DNA of 64,000 nucleotides from Tepidanaerobacter acetatoxydans Re1 (GTDB lineage Bacteria > Bacillota > Thermosediminibacteria > Thermosediminibacterales > Tepidanaerobacteraceae): positions 2,090,516 through 2,154,515 of the forward strand of contig NC_019954.2 in assembly GCF_000328765.2 (NCBI RefSeq). The letters are read 5' to 3'. The position numbers were made by a program, and so were the translations under genes. Shown one piece after another: positions 5,061 through 8,406 of this stretch (the first letter of the stretch is position 1; the number at the start of each line of letters is the position of its first letter). Under the pieces are notes generated by a model. That model was not told where the DNA came from and did no database searches. It saw only the letters and a program-made list of their open reading frames with translations.

Positions 5061-5172
5061 ATACAGCCGCTCATACCCAAAATTCTGCCAGTTGTACCTT
5101 TAAAAACGTCAGTTGTACCTTGTAGGCAGGAAAAATGAAAATATTGCAGAAAATATTTACGATAAGTAAATT
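5061..5172 (+). promoter_or_regulatory. LytTR-regulated promoter of the agr-like operon (three 21-bp-spaced half-sites)
   Basis: Three 10-bp half-sites lie in register: CGCTCATACC (5068), CAGTTGTACC (5089) and CAGTTGTACC (5110), each 21 bp apart. This is the geometry bound by LytTR-family regulators such as AgrA and VirR. A fixed GCAGG follows at 5126. A promoter-like TTGCAG (5144-5149), 17 bp and TAAATT (5167-5172) lie downstream. The same arrangement recurs before the signal-peptide gene at 8047-8098, so the regulator at 7312 is the likely binder. Confidence 0.7.
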
Positions 5173-5209: not shown

Positions 5210-5250
5210 AATATTTTTATAAGCAGGTAAATACTGCTTATAAAAATATT
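5210..5250 (+). promoter_or_regulatory. long AU-rich leader hairpin of the agr-like operon
   Basis: Perfect 17-bp inverted repeat (5210-5226 with 5234-5250, 7-nt loop GTAAATA) between the predicted promoter and the first gene. No T-run follows, so it is not a typical terminator. It may control mRNA stability or translation of the 5' leader; this is inferred. Confidence 0.5.
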
Positions 5251-5375: not shown

Positions 5376-5849
5376 ATGTTTCCCATACCCTGGTATGTAG
5401 TGATTTTTGAATCTATACCCGAAGCCTTATTGTTACAAATCTTAACCATAAAACTCATGAACAAAAAAAAGGTTTCTTTCTGCAAGCTTCTTAAAGTATC
5501 GATGTTGTATGGTGTGGCTGCATTTTTCATTAGAAATATTGCCTTCCATTTGGGACAGCATTTTTTATTCAGCTTGCACACAATTTTGTTGATCTTAGTC
5601 TTGGCCCTGTTGTTTGATTTAATACATAAAATTAAGTTTAGTCGTAGTTTTATTCCACTATTCATCGTATCAGTGCTGTTTGGATTAATTCAATATACAT
5701 TTGTATTGATTATATTTAATTTATATAAGTTGAATATCTATACTTTTCAAGAAAGCCCTTGGCTTAATATTACTCTATTTATTCCTGTCGCTGGAATTAC
5801 GTACTCAATTGTATGCATTTACACAAAATATGCAGGTGAGATAAGGTGA
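5376..5849 (+). CDS. polytopic membrane protein upstream of the GHKL sensor kinase
   Basis: Integral membrane protein of 157 residues with about five hydrophobic segments (roughly residues 5-25, 45-62, 66-82, 91-115 and 128-150) and no catalytic motif. Its stop overlaps the kinase start (GTGA), which indicates translational coupling. The kinase itself has only two predicted membrane spans, whereas staphylococcal AgrC has a multi-span sensor fused to its kinase. The position and coupling suggest this protein supplies the missing sensor part or partners with it; that is inference. The ribosome-binding site GGGAGT lies 10 nt before the ATG. No family was recognised with confidence. Confidence 0.75.
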   Translation: MFPIPWYVVIFESIPEALLLQILTIKLMNKKKVSFCKLLKVSMLYGVAAFFIRNIAFHLGQHFLFSLHTILLILVLALLFDLIHKIKFSRSFIPLFIVSVLFGLIQYTFVLIIFNLYKLNIYTFQESPWLNITLFIPVAGITYSIVCIYTKYAGEIR

Positions 5850-6748
5850 ACAGAAAAAATCTTGTAATAATTTTTACTTTAACCTTTCAGTTAATGGTAA
5901 TTTTGATGCTGAATCAGGTGATGTTTGCAACGGATGCCCAACTATATTATAAAAGTCTGCCTTTTATAATAGTTTCTTTCATAATAATGATTTTGAGCCT
6001 TTATTTCGCATTAAAATATATTGAGTATTATTCAAAAAAAGAGGTGGAATACGAATCTGTGAATTCATATTTGAAAGAAATTGAAGAATTGCTTAATACA
6101 TTAAGAAGCGAAAGACATCAGCATTCCCAGCACATTCAAACCATACAGGCCATGATATACACAGAAGAATATGAGGAACTTAAACAATATGTCAATGGTA
6201 TAGCCGGAAATTATCGGAACACCAGCGAATTACTGCGCTTAGGAGACTTGGGGTTAACCGCTGTTTTAAATATCAAAATGGAAACCGCCAAAAGAAATAA
6301 TATAAATTTTTATGTAAAATCAAATGGAAATAAAATAAGAAACCTCAAAATGAGTTCATGGGAACTAAGCACAGTTATAGGCAATGTATTGGACAATGCG
6401 ATAGAAGCCGTTATGGAAAAAACCGGTGAGCGAAATATAAATCTTGAGCTGCAGGAGGATGAAGAAAATTACATCTTTAAGATTTCAAATAACGGCGTGA
6501 CGATTAAAGAATCTGATATGTATAAAATTTATGATGCCGGTTTTAGTACAAAACATAAAGACGCAAGAGGTTTTGGCCTTTATGTAGTAAAAAAGATAAT
6601 AGATAAATACTGCGGCAAAATCTCTTTGTCAATATATGACGGTTTAACAACCTTTACTATATATCTTCCAAAAAAGGGTGGTGAAATTGGTGCTTCGGAG
6701 TTGTTCTCAAAAGTTGTCACAGATAATAATTTCAGAACTGGGATATGA
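5846..6748 (+). CDS. GHKL-domain sensor histidine kinase, AgrC-like
   Basis: Membrane histidine kinase predicted to sense the peptide signal made by this locus and phosphorylate the LytTR regulator. The 300-residue product has two N-terminal transmembrane segments (about 7-27 and 38-57), then a helical dimerisation part with the likely phosphoacceptor H91 in the sequence ERHQHSQHI. A GHKL ATPase follows, with N-box NVLDNAIEAV near residue 178 and G-box RGFGLYVVKKI near 242. It starts with GTG overlapping the preceding stop by 4 nt, and its end overlaps agrB by about 70 nt. The catalytic half is typical of AgrC-type kinases; the short sensor region is unusual. Confidence 0.88.
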   Translation: MNRKNLVIIFTLTFQLMVILMLNQVMFATDAQLYYKSLPFIIVSFIIMILSLYFALKYIEYYSKKEVEYESVNSYLKEIEELLNTLRSERHQHSQHIQTIQAMIYTEEYEELKQYVNGIAGNYRNTSELLRLGDLGLTAVLNIKMETAKRNNINFYVKSNGNKIRNLKMSSWELSTVIGNVLDNAIEAVMEKTGERNINLELQEDEENYIFKISNNGVTIKESDMYKIYDAGFSTKHKDARGFGLYVVKKIIDKYCGKISLSIYDGLTTFTIYLPKKGGEIGASELFSKVVTDNNFRTGI

Positions 6749-7286
6749 AAAATATGACAAAGAAATATTGGAATATGGATTTGAAATTATGCTGGGTATG
6801 ACCTTTAAATTTTTTTCAATCCTTACTGTTTCTTTGGTTTTACATACCCTCCCTGAAACAATGTTAAGTCTTTTTGCCTTTGCTTCAATCAGAAATTTTG
6901 CCGGAGGTGCTCATCTTAAAACCTATGCATCATGCTATGCAACAGGTGTTTGTATGTTCGCTTTAAATGGTTTGATAATTAAATATATATCTTTTGACAC
7001 AAATCACCTTATAATTGTAAGTGATATTTTTTTCATTATAAGCCTTTTCATCACTTTAAAATGGGTACCTGCAGGAACAGAAAAAAAGGTTGTCTCGGAT
7101 TTATGCACCAGACAAAAACTTAAAGGAATCACAATAATAATATTAGGTGTATTATTTATTCTTACTCATATGTTTTACTTTATTGGCAATTACAATCTGT
7201 TAAAGGCTATTTTCTTTGGAGTATTAGAAGGAATGCTGTTTGTTACCCCGTTGGGGTATAAAATACTAAGGATTTCATATCACTGA
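6678..7286 (+). CDS. agrB: AgrB-family membrane endopeptidase (autoinducer processing)
   Basis: Membrane cysteine endopeptidase that cuts the C-terminal tail from an AgrD-type precursor and forms the cyclic peptide. The 202-residue product has the family signature RNFAGGAHLKTYASCY. Catalytic H79 and C86 are seven residues apart, matching the AgrB H77/C84 pair. About five hydrophobic segments and the N-terminal LEYGFEIML element are also visible. The exact start is uncertain because it overlaps the end of the kinase gene: GTG at 6678 or 6681, or the TTG/GTG codons just after, all follow a weak GGGTGG. It lies in an operon with kinase and regulator; the peptide gene is last and has its own promoter. 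Confidence 0.93.
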   Translation: MVKLVLRSCSQKLSQIIISELGYEKYDKEILEYGFEIMLGMTFKFFSILTVSLVLHTLPETMLSLFAFASIRNFAGGAHLKTYASCYATGVCMFALNGLIIKYISFDTNHLIIVSDIFFIISLFITLKWVPAGTEKKVVSDLCTRQKLKGITIIILGVLFILTHMFYFIGNYNLLKAIFFGVLEGMLFVTPLGYKILRISYH

Positions 7287-7311: not shown

Positions 7312-8028
7312 ATGGCAAATATACTTGTTTGTGAAGATGAAAAAAATACTTTGGCTATGATTTGCAAGCTTTTAAAGGGGAACTCTCTTGTTGAAGAAAT
7401 TTTCCCTGCATCTTGCGGAAATGAAGCAGTTGAAATCATAAAAAAACAGTCTCCTCATATCTTGCTTTTAGACATCGACTTGCCCGATATTGATGGGATT
7501 GAAGTTGCCAAAATCGCCAACACTTTCGACCCTGATACTTCCATAGTCTTTATTACGGGATATCCTGATTATGCACATGAATCTTTTATAGTTCATCCAT
7601 ATGATTACATACTAAAGCCTATCGACATTGAAAGATTCAATCAAACTATCAACAATCTCATAGTCAAACGTGAATCCAGCATGTTAGACAACAAACTAAA
7701 AATCGCTGAAATATTTCCTGTTAGAATTAAAAACAAAATACTCTTTTTAAACATAAAAGATATCATATTTATTGAAAAAAACGGCAAAGACACCACCATA
7801 CACACCAGAAAAGGCCCATTTATGTGTAATGAAAACCTTAAGGACATCGAATCTGAATTAAACAGCCATTTTTACAGAACACATAAATCTTATATCGTAA
7901 ACATCGGTATGGTTGAATGTATCGAGAGCTTAGGCGACTCATATGAAATAAGTTTTTACGGCTATGACAAAAAGGCTTATATGAGTAAAGGAAAATATCT
8001 GTTTATCAAAGACAAAATATCTGTCTAA
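7312..8028 (+). CDS. LytTR-family response regulator, AgrA-like
   Basis: DNA-binding response regulator of the peptide quorum-sensing circuit. The 238-residue product has a receiver domain (about 1-120) with acidic pocket CEDE, phosphoacceptor D54 in LLLDIDLPDIDG and the conserved Lys in YILKPID. A LytTR DNA-binding domain follows (about 135-238: IFIEKNGKDTTIHT, FYRTHKSYIVN). LytTR proteins bind direct repeats with about 21-bp periodicity, which is what is found upstream of this operon (5068-5119) and of the peptide gene (8047-8098), suggesting autoinduction. The AGGTAAGG-type ribosome-binding site is moderate, and the gene is 25 nt after agrB. Confidence 0.92.
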   Translation: MANILVCEDEKNTLAMICKLLKGNSLVEEIFPASCGNEAVEIIKKQSPHILLLDIDLPDIDGIEVAKIANTFDPDTSIVFITGYPDYAHESFIVHPYDYILKPIDIERFNQTINNLIVKRESSMLDNKLKIAEIFPVRIKNKILFLNIKDIIFIEKNGKDTTIHTRKGPFMCNENLKDIESELNSHFYRTHKSYIVNIGMVECIESLGDSYEISFYGYDKKAYMSKGKYLFIKDKISV

Positions 8029-8046
8029 TTTATAATCATATTCTGC

Positions 8047-8148
8047 CATTCATACCTAATATTCTGCCGATTACATTGCGAAAACTGCCAGTTGTGCGAG
8101 TCTAGCAGGAAATTCGTTTCTTTTGAAGAATATTACAATTGTTAGAAT
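8047..8148 (+). promoter_or_regulatory. LytTR-regulated promoter of the peptide precursor gene
   Basis: Three half-sites at exactly 21-bp spacing: CATTCATACC (8047), CGATTACATT (8068) and CAGTTGTGCG (8089). GCAGG at 8105 has the same offset as in the operon promoter. A likely -10 TAGAAT lies at 8143-8148 with a poor -35 box, as expected for an activator-dependent promoter. Confidence 0.65.
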
Positions 8149-8177
8149 AATAACAAAAATCTTCGGGAGGTGGAAAA

Positions 8178-8315
8178 ATGTTTAAAAGGTTTAAAACACA
8201 GATTCTCTCTTCCCTAGCATCCTTTGTAGCCGTAGTAGCTTTTTCGGGCGTTTCTGCAACGAGCATGTGGATATTTTATGAGCCTGATATTCCAAAGGCT
8301 CTAAAGGACAAATGA
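8178..8315 (+). CDS. agrD: AgrD-like cyclic lactone autoinducer precursor (Ser ring residue)
   Basis: Short ORF of 45 codons; ATG with GGGAGG 7 nt upstream, ending TGA at 8315. It has the three parts of an AgrD precursor: a basic amphipathic N-terminus (MFKRFKTQILSSLASF), a hydrophobic and small-residue middle, and an acidic, proline-containing tail YEPDIPKALKDK that matches the recognition tail of the family. The residue expected to close the five-residue ring before the tail is Ser29 (S-M-W-I-F), not Cys, predicting a lactone rather than a thiolactone, as known for Staphylococcus intermedius. It lies downstream of agrB, kinase and regulator with its own LytTR-type promoter and a strong terminator. 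Exact mature ends are inferred. Confidence 0.85.
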   Translation: MFKRFKTQILSSLASFVAVVAFSGVSATSMWIFYEPDIPKALKDK

Positions 8316-8365
8316 TAGCCCAAAGCTTAAAAGCCTTGCCAATTTACACTACTCCCTAGTTTTAA

Positions 8366-8406
8366 GGGCAAATCATACAATTGTATGATTTGCCCTCTTT
8401 TTTTAA
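8366..8406 (+). terminator. strong intrinsic terminator after the peptide gene
   Basis: Perfect 30-bp palindrome (8366-8395, arms GGGCAAATCATACAA and its complement) followed on the plus strand by TCTTTTTTTTAA. It closes the agr-like locus. Confidence 0.92.

Follow-up and report, generated by a model that had tools for sequence, protein, structure and literature searches.

An agr-type locus with a serine-bearing AgrD and a putative two-part receptor in Tepidanaerobacter acetatoxydans Re1

An agr-type locus of Tepidanaerobacter acetatoxydans Re1 encodes a signal precursor in which serine replaces the cysteine expected at the ring-closing position. Is this serine a working residue, and which of the neighbouring proteins would make, read and answer the peptide? 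The window that we analysed, a stretch of 64,000 nucleotides, holds genes for AgrB, a GHKL kinase, a LytTR regulator and AgrD in one block on the plus strand, as expected from the original prediction of an agr-type locus. The agrD open reading frame lies exactly at 8178-8315 (45 codons, translation MFKRFKTQILSSLASFVAVVAFSGVSATSMWIFYEPDIPKALKDK), and its ribosome-binding site, GGGAGGTGG (8165-8173), stands directly 5′ of the ATG. Its product matches TIGR04223, the family of AgrD cyclic lactone autoinducer peptides, at 43.4 bits (E 2.6e-11, cut-off 19) and none of the Pfam models searched; it is one of only three TIGR04223 matches in the whole genome. A hydrophobic segment (residues 9-27), as in an amphipathic leader, precedes Ser29, whose AGC codon (8262-8264) is found, as predicted, five residues ahead of the YEP tail and opens the predicted ring SMWIF (8262-8276). 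Compared with the two closest relatives, dN/dS is 0.11-0.29 for agrD and 0.08-0.19 for the other four genes of the locus, so that all five genes evolve under constraint. Judged by its sequence, this frame is a genuine AgrD precursor gene. It is followed by a perfect 16-bp inverted repeat with a T-run (8365-8406, plus strand), an intrinsic terminator that agrees with the proposed position of agrD at the end of the locus.

As one explanation of these features, we consider it probable that the locus is a complete agr-type system, with a Ser29-closed ring SMWIF, a receptor made of two proteins and self-regulation by a LytTR regulator through phased repeats. AgrB would cleave the precursor after Phe33 and pass the carboxyl group to the hydroxyl of Ser29, giving a five-residue ring Ser-Met-Trp-Ile-Phe, either as a lactone or, if nothing precedes the serine, as an O-to-N rearranged cyclic peptide. 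Once exported, the ring would be sensed by a five-helix membrane protein (5376-5849) and a two-helix GHKL kinase (5846-6748), which together would amount to one AgrC; the kinase would phosphorylate the LytTR regulator (7312-8028), and this regulator would bind the phased repeats ahead of both the operon and agrD, thereby raising its own expression. Sequence comparison shows what each gene is, that the serine and the tail are conserved, that AgrB has its catalytic residues, that the sensor exists in split and in fused form, and that the repeats are present. From these we infer that the ring closes and is exported, that the split receptor binds it, that phosphate is transferred and that the regulator binds the repeats. 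If so, a syntrophic acetate oxidiser of biogas reactors would possess a fully wired and easily testable agr system of the lactone type.

The ring of this AgrD is very probably closed through serine, to judge from the conserved residues and from known signals. The nearest precedent is the AgrD Clo1313_2818 of Clostridium thermocellum, likewise a thermophilic clostridial host, in which a five-residue ring closed by serine and ending in Phe is followed by Tyr and a conserved Pro; its lactone pentapeptide was confirmed by targeted LC-MS/MS against a synthetic standard (Verbeke 2017, PMC5322536). That gene reportedly has no agr operon beside it, whereas agrD of T. acetatoxydans adjoins the genes for AgrB, sensor, kinase and regulator. 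Following this example, the cut by AgrB is expected behind Phe33 and ring closure at Ser29. The autoinducing peptide (AIP) of Staphylococcus intermedius and S. pseudintermedius, RIPT[STGFF], is also a lactone with a five-residue ring and Ser for Cys (PMC12312760), but it differs in its four-residue exotail, in the agrBDCA gene order and in its single-chain AgrC. Similarly, the Fsr system of Enterococcus faecalis combines a serine lactone, GBAP, with AgrB-like processing and a LytTR regulator; unlike the locus described here, it has a nine-residue ring (PMC12312760), and fsrD lies within the fsrB gene (PMC3673130).

The five-residue lactone of the original prediction is supported as regards the Ser-type AgrD, less so as regards the final form of the signal. 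‘Lactone’ is not a safe prediction for that form, because an O-to-N acyl shift is possible if no residue precedes the serine. The mature signal might then be a homodetic cyclic peptide, AgrB making the lactone and the ester migrating afterwards to the free amine. AIPs lacking an exotail do rearrange: in 22 h at 37 C and pH 7, rearrangement had consumed 48% of a Listeria AIP lactone analogue and hydrolysis another 36% (PMC11297923). The shift could be faster in T. acetatoxydans Re1, since this strain tolerates up to 55 C (PMC3587937), and the mature C. thermocellum peptide is likewise devoid of an exotail (PMC5322536). Against this, the published C. thermocellum product is a lactone that agreed with its synthetic standard, and any exotail on the mature peptide would block the shift. 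We regard the homodetic form as rather unlikely. The calculated [M+H]+ of the ring SMWIF is m/z 665.311.

How such a ring would be perceived is a less expected part of the locus. The gene at 5376-5849 (plus strand) encodes a 157-aa membrane protein, putatively the sensor half of a split AgrC-like receptor, for which no model was found in Pfam or NCBIfam. The next gene (5846-6748, plus strand), whose start overlaps its end, encodes a GHKL histidine kinase (PF14501, SPOB_a) with two N-terminal membrane helices, the putative kinase half. A profile grown from the 157-aa protein collected 78 distinct family members in the AgrD loci that were fetched; ten of them are fused to a GHKL kinase in one chain of 446-483 aa and the rest are free-standing, 29 of these with a kinase frame directly behind. 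Hydropathy gives five helices in the 157-aa protein, two in the window kinase and seven in one of the fused proteins (L037), and almost all split kinases of other loci have two. The AlphaFold2 model of the 157-aa protein (mean pLDDT 90.6) consists of five long helices. Across 23 aligned members of the family, E16, R53 and H68 do not vary, although distant representatives share only 16-25% identity with the window protein.

The AgrC of Staphylococcus aureus, also a membrane sensor of an AIP with a GHKL kinase, provides a second line of comparison. The alignment of the fused L037 protein with its profile (63-442 on 12-399) already starts in the membrane part, and the S. aureus AgrC kinase module is the best match of the window kinase among solved structures (E 1.3e-8). 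S. aureus AgrC is one polypeptide, however, whereas T. acetatoxydans has two separate genes in place of a single chain with six to seven membrane helices and a kinase, a form encountered here in the 10 relatives. Taken together, the fusions, the gene order and the helix counts, with the likeness of L037 and of the window kinase to S. aureus AgrC, suggest that 5376-5849 and 5846-6748 form a two-part AgrC. If this is true, the sensor is a separable module and the peptide-reading and signalling halves could be exchanged.

Alternatively, the 157-aa protein could be an accessory, such as an exporter or a chaperone for the peptide, with the two-helix kinase sensing the signal alone. Its family indeed adjoins agrB in many loci without a recognisable agr kinase, and no solved fold resembles it: a Foldseek search with the model gave no match below E 1, and the best VIA match (Z 5.4) was to unrelated membrane proteins. 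Nevertheless, an accessory would fit poorly with the kinase fusion in 10 relatives, with five and two helices adding up to the seven of the fused protein, and with this protein's match to the S. aureus AgrC profile, which sets in at the membrane part. Moreover, the 157-aa protein has the lowest conservation in the operon, AgrD excepted (76% identity to the nearest relative versus 94% for the kinase), as would suit a ligand-reading part. We therefore find the accessory role improbable and keep the two-part AgrC as our working model.

The free-standing members without a kinase led to another possible partner when the next gene was checked. In 21 loci from 21 genomes, the order five-helix protein, agrB, agrD and an enzyme with GGDEF and HD-GYP domains is nearly always kept (among them L068:1853-4825, L142, L069, L079, L083, L130, L131, L132, L135, L139, L140, L147, L154, L159, L160 and L161). 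The enzyme, of about 560 aa (510-690 aa) and with membrane helices of its own, carries the HD and GYP signatures in all 21 cases and, in most, a motif recognisable as GGDEF-type. Mostly the first three genes overlap or lie almost end to end, the enzyme gene usually follows 10-90 bases further, and mostly no kinase lies alongside. The arrangement of this cassette suggests control of c-di-GMP by an autoinducing peptide. Although it lies outside the window, it bears on the window sensor because the same membrane-protein family would serve both outputs. We propose tentatively, giving the idea slightly less than even weight, that the five-helix protein is a free-standing and so far unnamed AIP receptor subunit with exchangeable outputs, a GHKL kinase here and a membrane GGDEF and HD-GYP enzyme in at least 21 other clostridial loci, where c-di-GMP would come under direct control of the agr peptide with no histidine kinase in between. 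Such a module would connect c-di-GMP with agr quorum sensing, a connection of which no description was found in the literature searched. The AgrDs of the cassette comprise 17 with Cys, 3 with Ser and one shifted-Cys peptide. This preference for cysteine (17 Cys and 3 Ser versus 14 Cys and 32 Ser or Thr, Fisher p 5e-5) was rejected as independent evidence of an association, since it follows the AgrB tree (5 changes versus 17 in shuffles).

Is the serine itself exceptional? We searched 149 genomes, that of the window and relatives, with TIGR04223 and extracted the loci from the 66 that gave matches. Six other genomes of the family contribute nine AgrD copies of this type, and none has lost the serine, the Trp in third place of the ring or the YEP tail; Ser, W, I and the tail YEPDIP are conserved throughout, the rings read SMWIL, SMWIF, SIWIF, SAWIF or SIWIL, and the serine codons are AGC or AGT. 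The non-conservation that would have spoken against the prediction was thus not encountered in these relatives. The family also has separate Cys-type AgrDs (e.g. CMGWF before YQP), which are not orthologues of the Ser type. Among 107 distinct AgrD-like peptides from the relatives, 55 have Cys five residues ahead of the tail, 49 have Ser, two have Thr and one has Gly, the last with a Cys one place earlier; these peptides were collected by profile, and the proportions of Cys and Ser are only a guide. The other ring positions admit 13-14 different residues each. Since this position is Cys, Ser or Thr in 106 peptides while the rest of the ring varies, serine looks like a working substitute and not a sign of decay. 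A position restricted to S, T and C behaves as expected of a ring-closing nucleophile, which supports a functional serine and equally shows it to be nothing out of the ordinary.

The rarity implied by the original prediction accordingly does not hold, in view of these 49 serines, of the C. thermocellum lactone known since 2017 and of the agr2 peptide of C. difficile, tabulated as NSA[SSWVA] with a Ser ring alongside the lactones of S. pseudintermedius and E. faecalis (PMC12312760). The Ser-AgrD belongs to a known type, and the split receptor built on an unnamed module is the less expected part of the locus. Among these clostridial relatives, hydroxyl-closed AgrDs seem about as common as thiol-closed ones, a situation hidden by the usual thiolactone picture. 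Serine is a poorer nucleophile than cysteine and their codons lie one change apart (AGC to TGC), but it is very improbable that Ser29 marks a decayed or non-cyclised peptide, encoded by a relic or by the source of a linear product, given its recurrence in nine same-family copies and in 49 of the 107 peptides, the low dN/dS and the hydroxyl retained in the two Thr peptides. Mapped onto the AgrB tree, the Ser/Thr label requires 11 changes versus 27 in shuffles. The window's clade has ten members, the window included, of which nine are Ser-type, and the clade of its own family is of the Ser type without exception. Threonine at the ring-closing position was observed near Ser-type relatives, in L051/L155 (G027, ATGFWSYQP), L100 (G099, ATGNWSYQP) and L084 (G143, ATTIAAYQP); a signal closed by threonine would, to our knowledge, be new. 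One further AgrD (L114:2999-3136) displays CGGFLW before YQP, its Cys being six residues ahead of the tail, and would form a six-residue ring.

The enzyme that would close these rings, the membrane peptidase and cyclase AgrB, is encoded on the plus strand and matches PF04647 (E 4.4e-40). The catalytic His and Cys announced for it are present: His79 and Cys86 (numbering from 6678) never vary among the 81 distinct AgrBs that have a paired AgrD. Its start at 6678 needs revision; the frame is open from there, but the GTG at 6690 is a likelier start (gene 6690-7286), because the product then has 198 aa, like those of the two closest relatives. No match was obtained for the AgrB sequence among solved structures. 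As candidates for a code distinguishing Ser from Cys substrates, alignment columns 40, 44, 59 and 83 differ between the corresponding AgrBs; none survives control for kinship, with only five usable independent pairs, and no such code is put forward.

The last component is an AgrA-like response regulator (7312-8028, plus strand) with a receiver (PF00072) and a LytTR DNA-binding domain (PF04397). Candidate sites for it precede the operon as three direct repeats 21 bp apart (5069-5118, plus strand: GCTCATACC at 5069, CAGTTGTAC at 5089 and CAGTTGTAC at 5110), two of them exact copies versus 0 expected in shuffles of the window. A second set in the same arrangement, also phased by 21 bp, precedes agrD (8047-8097, plus strand: TTCATACC, CCGATTACA and CAGTTGTGC). 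Both sets are conserved in two close relatives (G002 and G006 for the operon set), and other loci of the same family show similar sets before agrD or the sensor gene. Direct repeats spaced by two helical turns before a locus encoding a LytTR regulator suggest self-induction. Background for such sites comes from the VirR boxes of Clostridium perfringens (CCAGTTNTNCAC), which are likewise CCAGTTGTACC direct repeats for a LytTR regulator; the T. acetatoxydans repeats differ from them in occurring as two to three copies at 21 bp and only at the agr locus itself. The 31-bp two-box pattern is unique in the genome even at 3 mismatches, and a genome-wide regulon search with the two-box patterns (up to 3 mismatches) returned both sites at the agr locus only and no other target gene; two further two-box matches in the relative G011 had no clear target gene. 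The operon leader contains a perfect 17-bp A+T-rich inverted repeat (5210-5250) that relatives retain only in part; the stretch next to it, CTATGACTAGGG(G/A)ATCTCCTCA, is well conserved. Rfam gave no match anywhere in the window, this leader element included.

The published genome analysis of T. acetatoxydans Re1 makes no mention of quorum sensing or agr (PMC4374699). The same genome holds a second agr locus (L035, genome positions 980000-992000). Its minus strand encodes AgrB, a kinase and a LytTR regulator; its plus strand carries two agrDs of the Cys type that are almost identical to each other (ring CMLFV, HQP tail), and behind each comes a gene for a probable secreted protein. Because of this second locus, kinases and signals could in principle be cross-wired between the two. 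With a Cys-type and a Ser-type agr in one cell, the two chemistries could be compared side by side. Another relative (G007; L041, L043 and L044) has several Ser agrD copies, some beside a GGDEF gene and an HD-GYP gene, and the kinase of L043 is in pieces, a pattern that suggests duplication and decay of agr loci.
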